Positions 627 through 30,449 of a stretch of DNA of 32,978 bases are shown here, one piece after another (the first letter of the stretch is position 1; the number at the start of each line of letters is the position of its first letter). The notes below the pieces were generated by a model. That model was not told the origin of the DNA and did no database searches. It saw only the letters and a list, made by a program, of their open reading frames with translations. This DNA comes from an uncultured Clostridia bacterium (GTDB lineage: Bacteria; Bacillota; Clostridia; Oscillospirales; Acutalibacteraceae), in the NCBI GenBank assembly GCA_944376265.1, contig CALWCD010000022.1, forward strand, positions 1-32,978, written 5' to 3'. The position numbers were made by a program, and so were the translations under genes.

Positions 627-4316
<3,690 letters not shown>

Positions 4317-4334
4317 ATCTGTGTTTCTCCCTTC

Positions 4335-7300
4335 TTAAATCAAATCGTCGTCGTCACCGCTGCCGAAGTCGAAATCGTCGTCCTCATAGCCGTCGTCCTC
4401 ATCCTCCAGCAGGGGCTCGCCGTCGGCGTCTTCCATGGAATACCCGTCCAGATCGTCGGCCACGTTCTGTTCGTCGAACACGCCGTCGTCATGGTGGAAG
4501 CCCATATCGTCATCGTCGTCGAAGTTCTGTTTCAGGTCGATCTCCTGGTTGTCCTTATCCAGCACCTTCACATCCAGGCCCAAGGACTGGAGTTCCTTAA
4601 TGAGCACCTTGAAGGACTCGGGGATGCCGGGCTTGGGAATGTTCTGGCCCTTGACGATAGCCTCGTAGGTCTTGACACGGCCCACCACGTCGTCGGACTT
4701 GACCGTGAGGATCTCCTGCAGGGTGTAGGCAGCGCCGTAGGCCTCCAGGGCCCACACTTCCATTTCGCCGAAACGCTGGCCGCCGAACTGGGCCTTGCCG
4801 CCCAGAGGCTGCTGGGTGACCAAGGAGTAGGGGCCGGTGGAACGGGCGTGGATCTTATCATCCACCAGGTGGTGGAGCTTCAGGTAGTACATGTAGCCCA
4901 CCGTGACAGGGTTGTCAAAATACTCGCCGGTGCGGCCGTCCCGCAGCCAGAACTTGCCGTCCTCATGGAGGCCGCCCATACGGAAGGCCTCCCGGATGTC
5001 GGCTTCGTGAGCGCCGTCGAACACGGGGGTCATAATCTTCCAGCCCAGGGTCTTGGCGGCCATGCCCAGATGGACCTCCAGCACCTGACCGATGTTCATA
5101 CGGGAAGGCACGCCCAGGGGGTTGAGCACAATGTCCAGGGGAGTGCCGTCGGGCAGGAAGGGCATCTCCTCTTCCGGCAGAATCCGGGACACAACACCCT
5201 TGTTGCCGTGGCGGCCGGCCATCTTGTCGCCCACGGAGATCTTCCGCTTCTGGGCAATGTAGCAGCGCACCACTTTGTTGACGCCGGGAGACAGCTCGTC
5301 GTGGCTGTTCTCTCTGGTGAACACCTTCACGTCCACCACCACGCCGTACTCGCCATGGGGCACCCGGAGGGAGGTGTCACGGACTTCCCGGGCCTTCTCG
5401 CCGAAGATGGCCCGCAGCAGCCGCTCTTCCGCAGTGAGCTCCGTCTCGCCCTTGGGGGTGACCTTGCCCACCAGGATGTCACCGGCACGGACGTCGGCGC
5501 CCACCCGGATGATGCCCCGGTCGTCCAGGTCCTTCAAAAGCTCCTCGTTCACGTTGGGGATGTCGCGGGTAATCTCTTCCGGCCCCAGCTTGGTGTCACG
5601 GGCCTCGATCTCGTACTCCTCAATGTGGATGGAGGTATACACGTCGTTGCGCACGATCTTCTCGTTGAGCAGAACAGCGTCCTCGTAGTTGTAGCCTTCC
5701 CAGGTCATAAAGCCGATAAGGGCGTTTTTGCCCAGACTGATCTCGCCGTTCTTGATGGCGGGGCCGTCGGCGATGACATCGTCCTTCTCCACACGGTCGC
5801 CCACGCTGACCACAGGCACCTGGTTGATGCAGGTGCTCTGGTTGGAGCGCATGAACTTGATGATCTCGTAGTCGTCGATGTCGCCGTTATCCGCGGTGAC
5901 CCGCACCAGGTTGGCGCTGACGGACTTCACCACGCCGGCCCGCTTAGCCAGCACGCACACGCCGGAGTCCACGCCGGCCTTGTATTCCATACCGGTACCC
6001 ACAATGGGGCTCTCGGTGCGCAGCAGCGGCACAGCCTGCTTCTGCATGTTGGAGCCCATCAGGGCGCGGTTGGCGTCGTCGTTCTCCAGGAAGGGGATCA
6101 TGGCCGTGGCCACGGAAACCACCATACGGGGAGAGATATCCATATAGTCGGCCTTGGAGGCGGGCACTTCCACAAACTCGTCCTTGTGACGGCCCACCAC
6201 CTTGCTGTTGATGAAATGGCCTTCCTCGTCCAGGGGCTCGTTGGCCTGAGCCACAATGAATTCGTCCTCCATGTCGGCGGTCATGTAGACCACTTCCTTG
6301 GTGACGCGGCCGGTCTCCTTGTCCACCTTCCGGTAGGGGGCCTCAATAAAGCCGTACTCGTTGATCCGGGCAAAGGTGGCCAGGTAGGAAATCAGACCGA
6401 TGTTGGGACCTTCGGGAGTCTCAATGGGGCACATGCGGCCGTAATGGGTGTAGTGCACGTCACGGACTTCGAAGGAGGCGCGGTCACGGGACAGGCCGCC
6501 GGGGCCCAGAGCGGACAGACGCCGCTTGTGGGTCAGCTCGGACAGGGGGTTGGTCTGGTCCATGAACTGGGACAGAGGCGAGGAGCCGAAGAACTCCTTG
6601 ATGGCCGCCACCACAGGCCGGATGTTGATCAGGCTGTGGGGGGTGAGGGTCTCCAGGTCCTGAGCCTGCAGGGTCATCCGCTCCCGAATGACACGCTCCA
6701 AACGGGAGAAGCCGATGCGGAACTGGTTCTGGAGCAGTTCGCCCACGGAACGGATGCGCCGGTTGCCCAGGTGGTCGATGTCGTCGGTGGTGCCCAGGCC
6801 CACGGCCAGGCAGTTCATATAGTTGATGGAGGCGAAAATGTCGTCCACCGTAATGTGGTTGGGGATCAAATCCGCATAGCGGGCACGGAGCGCATCCTTC
6901 AGCTCCTCCTGGCTCTGGGCGGACTCCAGAATCTCGGAGAGCACCCGGTAGCACACACGCTCGTTGATGCCACACTCGGCCTTGGCGTCGAAATCCACAT
7001 ACTTCTGGATGTCCACCATGCCGTTGGAAATGATCTTCACTTCTTTGTCGTTGAGGGTGACCACGGCCTCCATCACGCCGGCGTCGTCCATGGCGTCGGC
7101 CATTTCCTTGGTGACGGTGGTACCGGCGTCGGCCATCAGCTCACCGGTGGTGGGGTTGGCCACGGGACGGGCCAGCACCTGGCCTACCAGGCGGCCTTCC
7201 AGGCGCAGCTTCTTGTTGTACTTGTAACGGCCCACACGGGACAGGTCGTACCGGCGGGGGTCGAAGAACAGGCCGTGGATGTGAGCCTGGGCGCTCTCAA

Positions 7301-8045
7301 TGGTGGGAGGCTCGCTGGGGCGCAGCTTGCGGTAGATCTCGAACAGCGCCTCTTCCATGGTTTTACAGGTATCTTTCTCGATGGTGGCGCGCATCCTATC
7401 GTCATCGCCGAAGAACTCCAGAATTTCCGTGTCGGTGCCAAGGCCCAGGCAGCGGATAAACACAGTGATGGGGATCTTCCGGTTTTTGTCGATGCGCACG
7501 TAGAACACATCGTTCACGTCGTTTTCATACTCCAGCCAGGCGCCCCGGTTGGGGATGATGGTGGAGGAAAACAGCTCTTTGCCAGAGCGGTCGTAGTCCA
7601 TCTTGAAGTACACGCCGGGGGAACGCACCAACTGAGAGACAATCACTCGCTCGGCGCCGTTGATGACAAAGGTGCCGCTGGGAGTCATCAGGGGGAAGTC
7701 GCCCATGAACACCTCGGACTCCTTGATCTCCCCGGTCTCCTTGTTCAGCAGCCGCGCGGTCACCCGAAGGGCCGCCGCGTAAGTGGCATCTCGCTCCTTG
7801 CACTCGGACACGCTGTAATTGGGCTTATCGTCAAGCTTGTAGTCCACAAAATCGAGCACCAGATTGTTGTTGAAGTCCGTAATGCCCGAAACGTCCTTAA
7901 AAACCTCTTTCAGACCTTCCGTAAGGAACCACTCGTACGAGTTTTTCTGGATCTCAATGAGGTTTGGCATTTTCAAGACTTCCTCGATCTTGCCAAAGCT
8001 CATTCGAGTATTCTTGCCCAATTGAACCGGTTTTACATTCACCAT
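4335..8045 (-). CDS. rpoB: DNA-directed RNA polymerase subunit beta
   Basis: Beta subunit of RNA polymerase, 1236 aa from the start chosen here ([17 protein letters not shown]...), which matches family N-termini. The frame stays open for another 48 codons upstream, but that part lacks a ribosome site and family similarity. The rifampicin pocket is intact: Q493, D496, H506 and S511 correspond to E. coli Q513, D516, H526 and S531, so rifampicin sensitivity is expected (inference). The [13 protein letters not shown] and [12 protein letters not shown] segments are present. The C-terminus is a run of Asp/Glu, as in beta'. The Shine-Dalgarno is poor: GGAG lies about 12 nt from the ATG. rplJ-rplL, which precede rpoB in most bacteria, are not upstream. 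Confidence 0.97.
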
Positions 8046-8241
8046 TTGGTTCAGCCACTCCAATCCTTTTAGTTTTGAATTGCCCACGGCCCCGCCGTTG
8101 CCGGCAGCCGCTTCCCAACTTCCAGGGAAAGAGCATTTTCCACAAAAAATCACATTTTTACATTCTGCACTTGATTCTTTACGAACCATGTGCTATACTT
8201 TAAAAAATGCTTTTGGGATACTCCTACCCATGATGATGCAG
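8046..8241 (-). promoter_or_regulatory. Leader of the rpoBC transcript
   Basis: About 195 nt between the predicted transcription start (near 8241) and the rpoB ATG. On the minus strand it holds a short GGGTA/TATCCC hairpin near the 5' end and a GCCG-GCAA-CGGC tetraloop hairpin about 55 nt before the start codon. It also contains the in-frame 48-codon extension with a CxxC pair. No known leader family is recognised, and function is unproven. Together with the promoter and the terminators that follow the Rrf2 gene, it fills the gene-free stretch 8046-8364. Confidence 0.4.
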
Positions 8242-27021: not shown

Positions 27022-27915
27022 TCACACCTTCCCCAGCAGCTTCAGGAAAGCCCCTTCCGGCAGAATGGCGGGGCCGCCCTGTTTCCCGGGAAGCGCCTTG
27101 TCTCCCGGCACGGCCACCACCAAAAAGTCGGTTTTCCCAGAGACCTCTTTCTCCACCCTGCCCCCGGCACGCAGGACCAGCTCCGCCGCCTTTGCCCGGG
27201 GAAGGGATTTCAGCTCCCCCGCAAAGGCCAGCCGCTTTTTATAGAAGGGGTGGCCGGGGACGCCGGGGTACTTGGGCGGCCGCTTTTTCTCAAACAGCCG
27301 GAGGAAGTCCTCCTCCGTGCCCTGAGAAAGGGCTTTCTCCCGAAGCTTCTCGTAGCAGCGGTAGGTGATCCAGCAGTCGGCCAGGGCACGGTGGGCACCC
27401 TGATAGGAGACCCCCAAAGCTTCCGCCACGTCCCCCAGCCGATGGTGGGGCATTTCCGGCAGCAGCTTTTTGGCGATGCGGAGATGGTCCAGAGAGTCGT
27501 TTTTGCAGGGCCGGCCCAGGTATTTCTGAAAGGAATCGTAGAGGAAGGCCATGTCGAACCCCACGTTGTGGCCCAGGATCAAGTCCTCCCCCAAAAACGC
27601 CTCCACCTGGGGCAGAGCGTCCTCCGGCAGAGGGGCGTTCTCCAGCATCTCGTCATCGATGCCCGTAAGGTTCTGAATAAAGTCATCCACGTAGCCCTCG
27701 GTCCACTCCCCGCCCCGCAGCACCTCCCGCCAGGGGGGACGGATCAGGGTGGAAAAGGTGTCGGTCACCTGTCCGCTGCGCACCCGCAGAGCTCCCACCT
27801 CGATGAGCCCGCAGGTCTCGCTGGAAAGGCCGGTGGTTTCCGTGTCCACCACCGTGTAGTCCCGGGGAAGGCACAGCCGGCTTTCCCCCTTTCCGGGACG
27901 GTCCACTTTTCCCAT
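27022..27915 (-). CDS. DEDDh 3'-5' exonuclease with C-terminal BRCT domain
   Basis: 297-aa protein. Residues 18-195 are a DnaQ/epsilon-type exonuclease: VVDTETTGL (D24, E26), GHNVGFDMAFL (D121) and GAHRALADC (H175, D180), i.e. all DEDDh residues present. Residues about 226-297 resemble a BRCT domain (KRLAFAGELKSLPRAKAAELVLRAGGRVEKEVSGKT). It is not the PolC-embedded proofreading domain and has no helicase part, so a repair or recombination exonuclease recruited through BRCT is likely. ATG 27915 has GAAGGG 5 nt upstream. It lies between the ispDF promoter and the HMA-gene terminator as a single gene. Confidence 0.88.
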   Translation of the reverse strand: MGKVDRPGKGESRLCLPRDYTVVDTETTGLSSETCGLIEVGALRVRSGQVTDTFSTLIRPPWREVLRGGEWTEGYVDDFIQNLTGIDDEMLENAPLPEDALPQVEAFLGEDLILGHNVGFDMAFLYDSFQKYLGRPCKNDSLDHLRIAKKLLPEMPHHRLGDVAEALGVSYQGAHRALADCWITYRCYEKLREKALSQGTEEDFLRLFEKKRPPKYPGVPGHPFYKKRLAFAGELKSLPRAKAAELVLRAGGRVEKEVSGKTDFLVVAVPGDKALPGKQGGPAILPEGAFLKLLGKV

Positions 27916-27982
27916 GAGCACCCTTCTTCCACCTGTTTTCCCCTATTGTACCTCCTTTCCCTCCGGGACGCAAGGCGAAAAA

Positions 27983-28010
27983 AGACGCTCCCGTCTCCCG
28001 GAAAGCGTCT
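27983..28010 (-). terminator. Terminator after the HMA-domain gene
   Basis: Minus strand AGACGC-(TTTCCGGGAGACGGGA)-GCGTCT followed by TTTTTC, with an inner CCG/CGG pairing. It lies 19 nt beyond the stop codon. Confidence 0.75.
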
Positions 28011-28029
28011 AAAGGCTTTGGCCTGCCTC

Positions 28030-28413
28030 TCATTTTTTAAGGGGCTCCACACTTACGGGACTGTACCCCAGTTTCCGCACCGTCTGTTTCAGTTCCTCAT
28101 CGGGAACCTCCTGCTTGGAGCGCACCAGGGCCGTTCCCTTGGCAAGGTCTGCCTTGACGTAAAACCCTTCCCGAGCATGGAACGCATTCTCCACCCGTTT
28201 TACGCAGTTCTGGCAGTGCATTCCCTCAATGCGCACCACTTTGGCACAGGGATAGTGGGACTTGTCCCCGTCAACGGGACGCACCCGCTTCACCTCATCA
28301 CCACCGGAGCCGCAGCAGCCTGTCTTCAGTTTTTTCAGATAGCTGCGCACTCCCAGCACACAGATCACTCCCAGCGCCAAACAGATGACAATGGTGGGTC
28401 CCATCCCTTCCAT
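28030..28413 (-). CDS. Membrane protein with heavy-metal-associated (HMA) domain
   Basis: 127 aa. One N-terminal membrane helix (about 5-22), a basic stop KKLK, then CC (33-34) and a Gly stretch, resembling the small FeoB-associated Cys-rich membrane proteins. A cytoplasmic HMA domain follows (about 57-125) with the metal-binding motif GMHCQNC (C67, C70). HMA domains pass Cu(I) or other soft metals; the metal here is not readable. ATG 28413 has AGGGG 6 nt upstream. A strong promoter with an 18-bp palindrome at its transcription start lies upstream; the same palindrome controls the DUF2325 operon. The two-part architecture (Feo-type anchor plus HMA) is notable. Confidence 0.85.
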   Translation of the reverse strand: MEGMGPTIVICLALGVICVLGVRSYLKKLKTGCCGSGGDEVKRVRPVDGDKSHYPCAKVVRIEGMHCQNCVKRVENAFHAREGFYVKADLAKGTALVRSKQEVPDEELKQTVRKLGYSPVSVEPLKK

Positions 28414-28447
28414 CTGAATCCCCTTCTTTCTCCATGTTCCAAAATGC

Positions 28448-28465
28448 AGTTAGATATTGCTAACT
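28448..28465. promoter_or_regulatory. Palindromic operator, copy C (HMA gene)
   Basis: AGTTAG-ATATTG-CTAACT on the plus strand: perfect 6-bp arms with a 6-bp centre. It starts exactly 6 bp downstream of the -10 box of the HMA promoter, over the transcription start, as expected of a repressor site. Confidence 0.75.
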
Positions 28466-28471
28466 ACCGTA

Positions 28472-28500
28472 ATCATATCACGGGTCTTCCCTTGTGTCAA
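28472..28500 (-). promoter_or_regulatory. Promoter of the HMA-domain gene
   Basis: Minus strand: -35 TTGACA (28500-28495), a 17-bp spacer and -10 TATGAT (28477-28472), followed by operator copy C. Confidence 0.8.
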
Positions 28501-28523
28501 TGCCTTTCCGCCTGAAAAGCAAA

Positions 28524-28549
28524 GGGACGAGGCTCTTCTGCCCCGTCCC
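28524..28549 (-). terminator. Terminator after the flavodoxin gene
   Basis: Minus strand GGGACG-G-GGC, loop AGAAGA, GCC-T-CGTCCC, then TTTGCTTTTC. It closes the DUF2325-DUF3793-flavodoxin operon. Confidence 0.75.
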
Positions 28550-28583
28550 CGCCGGCATGCTTCCCACAGGAGGAAAAGAAGCG

Positions 28584-29006
28584 TTACGCCAGCGCTTTTC
28601 CCAAGGCCTGGCAGGCGGCTTCCCCGTCGCTGTCAGGCGCCTCGTTGCAAATAACGCCTTCGCTGACCAGGTTGGCACCGTCTCCACGGCAGGTATCTTC
28701 CCAGGTGCGCATCCATTCACCGTCTCCCCATCCGTAGGAACCAAACAGGCCGATTTTCTTCCCGGAGAGCTTTTCCTCGCAGGCCTGGAACATGGGCTCG
28801 AACTCCCCTTCTTCCAACTGCTCCGCCCCCATGGAGGGGCAGCCGAACGCAATGGCGTCGAACTGGTCCATCAAGTCCGGGGAGAATTCCGCCGCGGTGA
28901 ACACCACCACTTCCGCCCCCGCCTCTTTGGCGCCTTCCGCCACCATAGCTGCCATGGCCTCCGTGTTGCCTGTTCCGCTCCAGTACACTACCGCGATTTT
29001 ACTCAT
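28584..29006 (-). CDS. Flavodoxin
   Basis: 140-aa short-chain flavodoxin, an FMN electron carrier that commonly replaces ferredoxin when iron is short. The phosphate loop WSGTGNTE (residues 9-16), the FMN loop around PSMGAEQLEEGEF and the second loop GSYGWGDGEW are intact. ATG 29006 has AAAGGA about 12 nt upstream. It is the last gene of an operon after DUF2325 and DUF3793 (38-nt gap), behind a promoter with two palindromic operators. The context fits induction under metal limitation (inference). Confidence 0.95.
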   Translation of the reverse strand: MSKIAVVYWSGTGNTEAMAAMVAEGAKEAGAEVVVFTAAEFSPDLMDQFDAIAFGCPSMGAEQLEEGEFEPMFQACEEKLSGKKIGLFGSYGWGDGEWMRTWEDTCRGDGANLVSEGVICNEAPDSDGEAACQALGKALA

Positions 29007-29044
29007 GGTGCAAACATCCTTTCGTCTTTAAAAATACTTCTTTG

Positions 29045-29590
29045 TCAGGCGGCTACCGTCAGCTGCCAAACCGTTCTGCCCTGGCTCCACAGCCGGGTGT
29101 ACACCTCCCGACATTTCCGAAATCGGGCAAACCGTTTCTGGGCTTCCAGCTCGTTGCAGTAAACCTTCCAGCAGCCGCTGCACTTGCAGTTTCGGCCCTG
29201 GTTTTGGATAAACCCGGTCACATCCCCCAGAGGATAACCCAAAAACAGACCTACCTCATGGGGAAACCTCTGAGTCTCACCCAGACGGGCCCGGAGTCTG
29301 GACAGGGCTCTATCCGGCTGCATGCTCTCGTAGCCACGGTCCGCCAAAAACGCCTTCACTCCCGGCTCTTCTAGGTCCCGGGCAAGCTGGGAGGGCCTGT
29401 AAAGGTACAGCAGCGCCCGCCCGTTCTGCCGCCGCAGCACCGTAAGTGAAAGGCCCTTCTGCGCCAGTCGCCTGTTCCACAGCGCTGTCTCCGTCTCCCA
29501 GTCCTCTTCAAGAGGGACACAGAACATGCTGGCTGTTTTCAGCCCCGCCAGGGTGGGAGACCCGTGTTGGATCAGATACCGCTCCACCAT
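29045..29590 (-). CDS. DUF3793 family protein
   Basis: 181-aa member of the DUF3793 family. Its C-terminal half carries the family signature HEVGLFLGYPLGDVTGFI, then CKCSGCWKVYCNE with C-x-C-xx-C-x4-C cysteines, and ends in an aromatic/basic helix. No function is established. The cysteine cluster could bind a metal or be redox active (inference). Its ATG follows the DUF2325 stop codon by 1 nt (TGAGATG), so the two are translationally coupled, and flavodoxin follows. I recall similar gene neighbourhoods with iron-transport genes in gut Clostridia, but could not check this. Confidence 0.88.
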   Translation of the reverse strand: MVERYLIQHGSPTLAGLKTASMFCVPLEEDWETETALWNRRLAQKGLSLTVLRRQNGRALLYLYRPSQLARDLEEPGVKAFLADRGYESMQPDRALSRLRARLGETQRFPHEVGLFLGYPLGDVTGFIQNQGRNCKCSGCWKVYCNELEAQKRFARFRKCREVYTRLWSQGRTVWQLTVAA

Positions 29591-29591
29591 C

Positions 29592-29876
29592 TCAGCCCAC
29601 CGTCCACTCCGCCAAGGCCGCGCGAAGGGCCGTGGCGCTGCTGGTATGGACCCTTGCCACAGGGATCTGGTTCTTTTTGGCCTCCTGGGTCACGCTGATG
29701 ACCATCTTGTGGGACACCGTGCTGATAAACAGGATCAGCAGGTCCGGGGTTCCCAGTTTCCGCTTTAAGGACCCGTTTTCCTTGGTGAACACCTTGGCCT
29801 TGCAGCCGTGTTCCCTGCAGATACCCTCATACTGGGCCGCCATCCGTTCGTTCCCTCCCACAATCACAACGCTCAT
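29592..29876 (-). CDS. DUF2325 family protein
   Basis: 94-aa DUF2325 protein: MSVVIVGGNERM, a Rossmann-like start, then DLLILFISTVSHKMV and ARVHTSSATALRAAL, the conserved family core with Cys 20 and 25 (ICREHGC). It may be a small nucleotide- or metal-binding domain; no function is established. ATG 29876 follows AAAAGGAG by about 8 nt. It is the first gene of the DUF2325-DUF3793-flavodoxin operon, with a leader of about 157 nt that contains a second operator copy and a 7-bp hairpin (29921-29945). Confidence 0.88.
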   Translation of the reverse strand: MSVVIVGGNERMAAQYEGICREHGCKAKVFTKENGSLKRKLGTPDLLILFISTVSHKMVISVTQEAKKNQIPVARVHTSSATALRAALAEWTVG

Positions 29877-29954
29877 AGGCTCGCTCCTTTTTTTGTCATC
29901 CCTGTTTAGGATCTTCCCGTCCTGTTCCAGGCTCCCCAGAACAGGCTGTCTCTA

Positions 29955-29972
29955 AGTTAGCTTAAACTAACT
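29955..29972. promoter_or_regulatory. Palindromic operator, copy B (DUF2325 leader)
   Basis: AGTTAG-CTTAAA-CTAACT on the plus strand: perfect 6-bp arms. It is centred 61 bp downstream of copy A, inside the transcribed leader, about 79 bp before the DUF2325 start. It may act with copy A by cooperative binding or as a roadblock. Confidence 0.7.
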
Positions 29973-30015
29973 ACAAAGGGAGAAAAATGCGCCATGCCGG
30001 CGCTTGTATTTCAAG

Positions 30016-30033
30016 TGTTAGTTTAAACTAACT
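30016..30033. promoter_or_regulatory. Palindromic operator, copy A (DUF2325 operon promoter)
   Basis: TGTTAG-TTTAAA-CTAACT on the plus strand, a 16-bp perfect palindrome inside the 18-bp site. It begins exactly 6 bp downstream of the -10 box, the same geometry as copy C. With copy B, the promoter and the divergent ACT-like promoter it fills the gene-free stretch 29877-30194. Confidence 0.8.
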
Positions 30034-30039
30034 GAGCCT

Positions 30040-30068
30040 ATTGTACAGGAAATTTTCTCTCCCGTCAA
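30040..30068 (-). promoter_or_regulatory. Promoter of the DUF2325-DUF3793-flavodoxin operon
   Basis: Minus strand: -35 TTGACG (30068-30063), a 17-bp spacer and -10 TACAAT (30045-30040), followed by operator copy A. Confidence 0.78.
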
Positions 30069-30116
30069 GAGGAAACCGAAAAAACTTTCAGCCCCGTCAT
30101 TCCTTCGGCAGTTCCC

Positions 30117-30145
30117 TTGTATCTTCCGGGAAAAAATGGTATACT
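30117..30145 (+). promoter_or_regulatory. Promoter of the ACT-like gene
   Basis: -35 TTGTAT (30117-30122), a 17-bp spacer and -10 TATACT (30140-30145). It is divergent from the DUF2325 promoter, with about 50 bp between the two -35 boxes. No palindrome copy overlaps it. Confidence 0.65.
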
Positions 30146-30194
30146 AGTTTCACAGCCGGACCAGCCCGGCACATTAATGAAACGAGGGATTGCC

Positions 30195-30449
30195 ATGAAC
30201 AGCTACTATATCATCGGCCTGCGGGTGGATCACCGCCACGCCAACGCTTTGAACCTCCAGAAGGCTCTCACCGAATTTGGCTGCAACATCAAGCTGCGGG
30301 TGGGGCTCCACGAAACCGGGGAGAACTTCTGCTCCGATGACGGGGTCATTATGCTGCAAGCCTGCGGCGACCAGGAGACCATCAACCGGATGGTGGAGGC
30401 TTTCAACGGTCTGGAAGGCGTTACCGCCAAGCTGCTGGACCTGAACTGA
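30195..30449 (+). CDS. Small ACT-like protein (TM1266/iron-hydrogenase-regulator-like)
   Basis: 84-aa protein with the beta-alpha-beta-beta-alpha-beta pattern of a ferredoxin-fold/ACT domain: YYIIGLRVDHRHANALNLQKAL, then CNIKLRVGLHE, DDGVIMLQACG and a final GVTAKLLDL strand. It resembles in outline the TM1266 family, sometimes labelled iron-only hydrogenase system regulator. This is a fold-level guess, not a firm family call, and ligand and role are unknown. ATG 30195 has GAGGG 6 nt upstream; earlier in-frame codons have no ribosome site. It is a single gene with its own promoter and a strong terminator, divergent from the DUF2325 operon. Confidence 0.8.
   Translation: MNSYYIIGLRVDHRHANALNLQKALTEFGCNIKLRVGLHETGENFCSDDGVIMLQACGDQETINRMVEAFNGLEGVTAKLLDLN

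Follow-up and report, generated by a model that had tools for sequence, protein, structure and literature searches.

The stretch of DNA analyzed here, called the window, comprises 32,978 nucleotides (nt) from an uncultured Clostridia bacterium of the family Acutalibacteraceae (contig CALWCD010000022.1). It contains three copies of the palindrome AGTTAG-N6-CTAACT, one at the promoter of a gene for an HMA-domain protein and two in the leader of an operon encoding DUF2325, DUF3793, and flavodoxin proteins. We conclude that an iron-sensing repressor of gut Clostridia probably binds at this palindrome. The second copy in the DUF2325 leader lies at a set distance behind a terminator-like hairpin, and the same terminator-operator arrangement recurs, with fixed spacing, in relatives; of this arrangement we have almost no doubt. 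The explanation that best accounts for the whole, a DtxR-type iron regulon with gating of a terminator by the repressor, we consider moderately probable. The elements concerned are as follows (bp, base pairs).

28448..28465, minus strand: HMA operator, over the expected transcript start; exact motif, 6 bp after the -10 box.
28472..28500, minus strand: HMA promoter TTGACA-17-TATGAT, with 11 of 12 consensus matches.
29955..29972, minus strand: operator 2 of the DUF2325 operon; exact motif, starting 16 nt after the hairpin stem (d = 16).
29979..30003, minus strand: terminator-like hairpin GCGCC-GGCAT-GGCGC (30003-29989) with the tail ATTTTTCTCC (29988-29979).
30016..30033, minus strand: operator 1 of the DUF2325 operon; one mismatch, 6 bp after the -10 box.
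30040..30068, minus strand: DUF2325 operon promoter TTGACG-17-TACAAT, with 10 of 12 consensus matches.

An earlier note on this DNA had reported the three sites, two of them exact and one with a mismatch in an outer base, and had seen no other copy in the window. We located all three, found no further copy at up to 2 mismatches, and confirmed the distance of 61 bp between the two copies in the DUF2325 operon. When the window was shuffled 100 times, the mean number of sites was 0.30, and three or more sites arose in 1 of the 100 shuffles. The two promoters are two of the three promoter-like sites present between 28000 and 30200, where 0.6 would be expected, and the repressor-type placement of operators at promoters that the note proposed is supported. 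The note had also spoken of an identical promoter geometry. This holds, at exactly 6 bp, for the HMA operator and operator 1, but not for operator 2, which lies behind the terminator-like hairpin and has no promoter.

We scanned the genome from which the window comes (2.37 megabases, 116 contigs, 96% complete), using the reversed motif as the control here and in all later motif counts. Nine sites were found at up to 1 mismatch, and the control gave none; as the earlier note had predicted, further copies lie at feo genes. The nine sites are distributed as three in the window, two each on contigs C30 and C70, and one each on C9 and C11, in contexts that include feoA, ABC-transporter operons, the HMA gene, and the DUF2325-DUF3793-flavodoxin operon. 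Both C30 sites are upstream of feoA, and both C70 sites are by ABC-transporter genes, one of them touching the first base of a mechanically called frame. The C9 site precedes a gene that is methyltransferase-like by eye, and the C11 site, which may be a chance occurrence, precedes one that is beta-galactosidase-like by eye. By our reading of the frames all nine are intergenic; a longest-frame rule placed some of them inside opposite-strand frames, which we took to be shadows of real genes. The 10-base core without the outer bases has nine exact copies in this genome, and two copies on C30, one of them between the second feoA and feoB, fall outside the nine sites. With 1 mismatch allowed, the core gave 20 copies, hardly above its control (15), so such sites were left uncounted unless otherwise supported. 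One C70 operator (7104-7135 of locus L030) occupies the 17-bp spacer of a TTGACT/TATAAT promoter before a gene for an LCM-family methyltransferase.

We examined 90 loci whose proteins resemble the DtxR-type protein, DUF3793, or FeoB. In these the arms GTTAG/CTAAC occurred 94 times at a spacing of 6 (control, 2) and twice at 5, with no copy at the remaining spacers between 0 and 15; some of the 94 copies are counted twice because loci overlapped between the searches. Counted per locus at up to 1 mismatch, the DUF3793 loci had a site in 28 cases, the FeoB loci in 16, and the DtxR loci in 9, each out of 30 (controls, 1, 1, and 0), and of 8 Fur-gene loci 1 had a site (control, 0). A larger set was then assembled from the best 80 of at least 582 DUF3793 relatives, chosen by protein similarity alone (the DUF3793 set); 75 of these 80 loci have a site within 1200 bp upstream, with 143 sites in all versus 3 for the reversed motif. 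The record titles of DUF3793 loci include Blautia, Roseburia, Fusicatenibacter, Lacrimispora, Gemmiger, Gallibacter, and Candidatus Allochristensenella. Among 192 sites, which had been selected for the AGTTAG motif, G stands at position 2 of the arm in 97% and at position 6 in 99%. The sites at feo genes support the metal or iron regulon that the earlier note had suggested.

Judged from sequence, the palindrome is very probably the operator of a DtxR/MntR-family repressor that would control iron-uptake and iron-sparing genes. Its candidate gene lies at 1220-1612 of contig C55 and encodes 131 amino acids (aa) with an N-terminal DNA-binding domain (PF01325, 37.6-38.8 bits, cut-off 26) and a metal-binding and dimerization domain (PF02742, 54.9 bits, cut-off 27), the same domains as in DtxR and IdeR. 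The only other protein of the genome above the PF01325 cut-off, on C62 (28.8 bits), is MarR-like by eye. The earlier note had stated that no regulator gene is adjacent; there is indeed none among the 8 neighboring window proteins scanned, but the genome has this DtxR-family gene elsewhere. The C55 gene (locus L039, 17-3110) is situated away from feo, between genes that by eye are thioredoxin/CcdA-like and TrkH-like.

The C55 protein carries a Cys-x-x-Glu-His pattern that we take to be the metal site of DtxR/IdeR. In 43 distinct homologs E18 and H84 are conserved in 43 of 43 and C106, E109, and H110 in 42 (one gap), and these residues presumably resemble the DtxR/IdeR metal ligands; at position 15 the residue varies (N in 31 homologs, M in 11, D in 1). 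Among solved structures the best matches are MntR proteins (2h09, E 1.4e-15; 1on1, E 5.8e-11), and the C55 protein is, like MntR of Bacillus subtilis and Escherichia coli, a short two-domain member of the DtxR family. It was not classed as MntR, as it scores 92 bits against a cut-off of 153 with the best NCBIfam MntR model and 67.9 against 138 with another. It has Cys106 where both aligned MntR proteins have Glu, and the gene set linked to it is one of iron uptake instead. The cysteine and the gene set favor iron over manganese without proving it, and the regulator is likely, on sequence grounds, to be a new member of the DtxR/MntR family.

The earlier note had remarked that the arms GTTAG/CTAAC recall DtxR/IdeR half-sites, a likeness that we also see, and had held the 6-bp spacer against a DtxR-type regulator. 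Operators with the 1-bp spacer that the note gave for DtxR/IdeR occur in none of the 90 loci, but the objection is not supported: SloR of Streptococcus mutans, a metal-dependent DtxR-family repressor, recognizes inverted repeats with a 6-6-6 layout that are present in several copies at a promoter (PMC12096823). The window operator has the same geometry (6-bp inverted arms and a 6-bp spacer, as in the 94 copies), both systems have several operator copies per promoter, and the C55 protein matches SloR at the sequence level (5cvi, E 6e-9). The two differ in the arms, which are AATTAA/TTAATT for SloR and AGTTAG/CTAACT here; in length, a chain of 215 residues versus 131 aa; and in the gene set, which is here centered on feo and DUF3793 and comes with the terminator-operator module.

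The location of the motif in relatives also answers the note's doubt about DtxR. Homologs of the C55 protein in other genera often adjoin feoB, mostly divergently, and the motif lies upstream of the DtxR/MntR-type gene next to feoB. Among the loci L138-L227, a site was found within 400 bp upstream of 20 of the 21 DtxR-type genes near feoB (reversed motif, 0), a count in which many FeoB loci were hand-picked and one, L173, had entered through the motif; without L173 it is 19 of 20, and for tool-ranked loci alone it is 4 of 4. The 40 hand-picked FeoB loci were selected with knowledge of the site and DtxR lists, which biases them toward feo operons with an adjacent DtxR gene. In a co-occurrence sample of 150 genomes of the family, the exact motif was present in 76 of 133 genomes with a DtxR homolog versus 2 of 17 without (Fisher p 0.0005); of the genomes at least 90% complete that lack DtxR, 1 of 8 (G047) has the motif.

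Several observations weigh against the assignment to DtxR. Small or incomplete genomes inflate the co-occurrence contrast, and the exact motif is absent from 57 of the 133 genomes with a DtxR homolog. The strongest of them is G047, which is 99% complete: neither sequence similarity nor PF02742 revealed a DtxR homolog in it, yet at up to 1 mismatch it contains 14 sites (control, 2), feo and DUF3793 included; G026 (72% complete) has 6 sites (control, 1), and a DtxR homolog was likewise not found in it. No site is present at the locus of the window genome's own DtxR gene, and among the best 30 DtxR loci 19 lack a site and 11 have one at up to 2 mismatches (control, 4). G125, a genome of the same genus, has a DtxR protein that is 70% identical, yet no exact site; at 1 mismatch it has 2 sites versus 2 in the control. 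One 1-mismatch site in G125, AGTTAGGCTTGCCTAACG (C21:302104-302121), is situated about 180 bp before a FeoB match, and the operator may have drifted in this genome. In G047, a gene that is MarR-type by eye lies near the feo operon (L240-L243).

The G047 and G026 genomes would fit an alternative in which a Fur-family or other regulator reads the operator, with the DtxR gene merely carried along in the feo locus as one of the regulated genes, and the window genome does encode two Fur-family proteins. However, the exact motif is about as frequent without Fur (15 of 30 genomes) as with it (63 of 120; p 0.84), and Fur was rejected as the reader of the motif. At up to 2 mismatches the Fur-gene loci have sites in 1 of 8, the same as the control. 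The motif upstream of nearly all DtxR-type genes near feoB and the 6-6-6 geometry, which fits SloR, also argue against this alternative, and we consider it improbable.

The second element of the DtxR-type iron regulon proposed here is the hairpin, which the earlier note had overlooked. It lies between operators 1 and 2 and is followed, in the direction of transcription, by ATTTTTC. A fold of 30034-29973, operator 1 included, has a z score of -2.59, and 1 of 200 shuffles was as stable. In relatives the hairpin sequences are unrelated, and the distance to the second operator is the same. We counted hairpins with a T-rich tail, using the reverse direction and shifted positions as controls, in a discovery set of 60 loci and 89 sites that includes the window's own locus. 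Such a hairpin occurs within 60 nt upstream, in the gene direction, of 31 of the 89 sites (reverse, 17), and at 13-18 nt before 24 (reverse, 5); shifted positions gave 0.4, 0.7, and 0.8 per 89 sites (3-nt bins, 12 to 20). The 13-18 nt range was fixed only after the discovery set had been inspected. In the DUF3793 set, a hairpin was found at 56 of 143 sites (reverse, 34), and at 13-18 nt at 30, of which 23 have a hairpin that is not itself an operator (reverse, 5 and 0; shifted, 1.9). After removal of the 5 loci that have a 40-mer in common with discovery loci, 27 of 136 sites remain, 21 of them with a non-operator hairpin, in 21 of 75 loci (reverse, 5 and 0). By this strict hairpin rule the module is present in a minority of loci. 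A count that does not depend on hairpin detection used the 41 operator pairs that are 40-80 bp apart in these 75 loci: at least 5 T in -16..-9 precede 35 of 41 downstream sites versus 5 of 41 upstream sites.

The promoter lies at the other member of the pair. In the 58 operator pairs of both sets, which come from 55 of 110 loci, a promoter with at least 9 of 12 matches precedes the upstream site in 52 and the downstream site in 3, and an internal promoter before operator 2 was therefore rejected. Operator 2 is thus downstream of a promoter and has none of its own, which is a roadblock-type placement.

In the window genome, the module occurs at 3 of 10 sites on C30, C70, and C9: in the feoA-feoB gap (d = 14), at C70:8890 (d = 17), and before feoA (d = 14, with an operator as the hairpin); the window site, with d = 16, is the fourth. 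In loci L122, L126, L130, L262, and L301 the hairpin before an operator is likewise itself an operator palindrome, and one sequence could be both a DNA operator and, when transcribed, a terminator stem. We rejected the possibility that the module accompanies every operator: the 29 sites of motif-picked loci gave 1 hairpin per strand at 13-18 nt (shifted, 0.5), and the 20 remaining FeoB loci, with 21 sites, had none in the gene direction and 3 in reverse, of which 2 are non-operator hairpins. DUF3793 leaders and feo operons of one particular type often have the module; Fusicatenibacter saccharivorans (L276) and a Blautia species (L295) are examples of commensals that carry it.

In the mechanism that we propose, a metal-loaded repressor, most likely carrying Fe2+, would repress feoAAB, the ABC transporters, the HMA gene, and the DUF2325-DUF3793-flavodoxin operon. 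With iron, repressor on operator 1 would block initiation, and a polymerase that escapes would be halted by repressor on operator 2 with its active site in the T-run, where the weak terminator would release it; without iron, operator 2 would be empty and the polymerase would read through. The sites, the promoters, the gene contexts, and the hairpin-operator distance were observed; that the repressor binds, which metal it carries, and which way it shifts termination we infer. We regard such repressor-gated termination as evenly poised between right and wrong. The more specific proposal, that an iron-loaded DtxR-type protein about 16 nt behind a weak hairpin holds the polymerase in the T-run and that loss of iron reopens the way, may be correct, but we put it a little lower, and it is with the same reserve that we suggest a DNA-bound repressor, rather than an RNA ligand, as the attenuation switch in the DUF3793/flavodoxin leader and some feo operons.

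The spacing can be compared with published work. A repressor that sits downstream of a promoter is able to block polymerase (PMC10310618 and PMC4132739), and EcoRI used as a roadblock arrests polymerase with its active site 12-13 nt short of the EcoRI site (PMC3913778); because operator 2 starts at the 17th base after the stem, such a halt would leave the active site in the T-run, 4-5 nt from its start. Weak B. subtilis terminators are aided by NusG-dependent pausing close to where release occurs (PMC8060035), and it is on this model that we propose that a bound repressor could help the hairpin to release polymerase. The proposal has some of its own evidence against it. As a terminator, the window hairpin alone is not significant (3 found, 2.6 expected). 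A non-operator module is present in 13 of 90 FeoB loci (3 of 30 tool-ranked, 10 of 40 hand-picked, and 0 of 20 others) and so is not general. For one B. subtilis terminator, release was reported 9-11 nt past the hairpin (PMC8060035), which is beyond the expected halt, so that a roadblock might hinder release; hindered release and plain additivity are therefore live rivals.

In the second of these, operator 2 and the terminator act independently: the hairpin limits leakage, operator 2 is a roadblock or an aid to cooperative binding, and the fixed spacing has another cause. Natural repressor roadblocks without terminators are known (PMC10310618, PMC4132739), and 7 successive pairs in the DUF3793 set are 34 bp apart, as cooperative binding might need. 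The distance from hairpin to operator 2 is, however, far more constant than that between operators 1 and 2 (22 to over 140 bp), and non-operator hairpins keep the spacing too, with the 23 in 143 sites noted above against 0 in reverse. We consider independence somewhat unlikely, though the strongest of the rivals to gating.

If release is hindered, the bound repressor blocks forward movement of the polymerase, and the complex is held rather than terminated. Forward translocation is one model of release (PMC3913778), and the expected stall precedes the release point given in PMC8060035. In iron-rich cells, polymerases would then remain stalled on the operon and the hairpin would have no clear use, and we judge this alternative quite improbable. 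It is still less probable that the short RNA made between operator 1 and the hairpin acts as a small regulatory RNA, with DUF2325 expressed by readthrough. Such an RNA would be expected from a strong promoter with a terminator about 60 nt further on, but the hairpin sequences at this place differ wholly between genera, a search of 27900-30300 for Rfam families gave no match up to E = 1, and the same module lies between feoA and feoB without a promoter directly before it.

Repressor-gated termination, as proposed here, would be a variant of roadblock repression and attenuation rather than a new category. With roadblock repression by LacI, CcpA, and CodY (PMC10310618 and PMC4132739) it has in common a repressor site downstream of the promoter, but in the present case that site follows a terminator-like hairpin at a fixed spacing. 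With attenuation by NusG-dependent pausing or TRAP (PMC8060035 and PMC3913778) it would have in common a weak leader terminator that depends on a protein, but the proposed switch is a DNA-bound repressor ahead of the polymerase and not a factor bound to RNA or polymerase. In the literature searched, which took in few subscription journals, we found no description of a repressor site placed behind a terminator, of the motif at iron genes, or of DUF3793 in bacterial iron control.

The genes that adjoin the operators in the window are as follows.

28030..28413, minus strand: HMA-domain protein, 127 aa (PF00403, 48.2 bits).
28584..29006, minus strand: flavodoxin, 140 aa (PF00258, 69 bits; TIGR01753, 145.9 bits, cut-off 123).
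29045..29590, minus strand: DUF3793 protein, 181 aa (PF12672, 202.4 bits).
29592..29876, minus strand: DUF2325 protein, 94 aa (PF10087, 110.8 bits).

HMA was the sole Pfam match of the HMA-domain protein at E up to 0.001. By eye, this protein has an N-terminal membrane-like helix and a CCGSGG stretch, and its start recalls FeoB-associated Cys-rich proteins fused to an HMA domain. Elsewhere in the window, two long minus-strand frames of 1229 and 1284 aa adjoin each other at 627-8189.

These results provide an operator code and a likely sensor for a probable iron regulon in a broad group of gut Clostridia, and they tie DUF2325 and DUF3793, two families of unknown function, to that regulon. If the proposed gating is true, a repressor would control an intrinsic terminator from the DNA side, which would be a new way of attenuation, and the terminator-operator module would be simple to test and could be a usable part for gene circuits.

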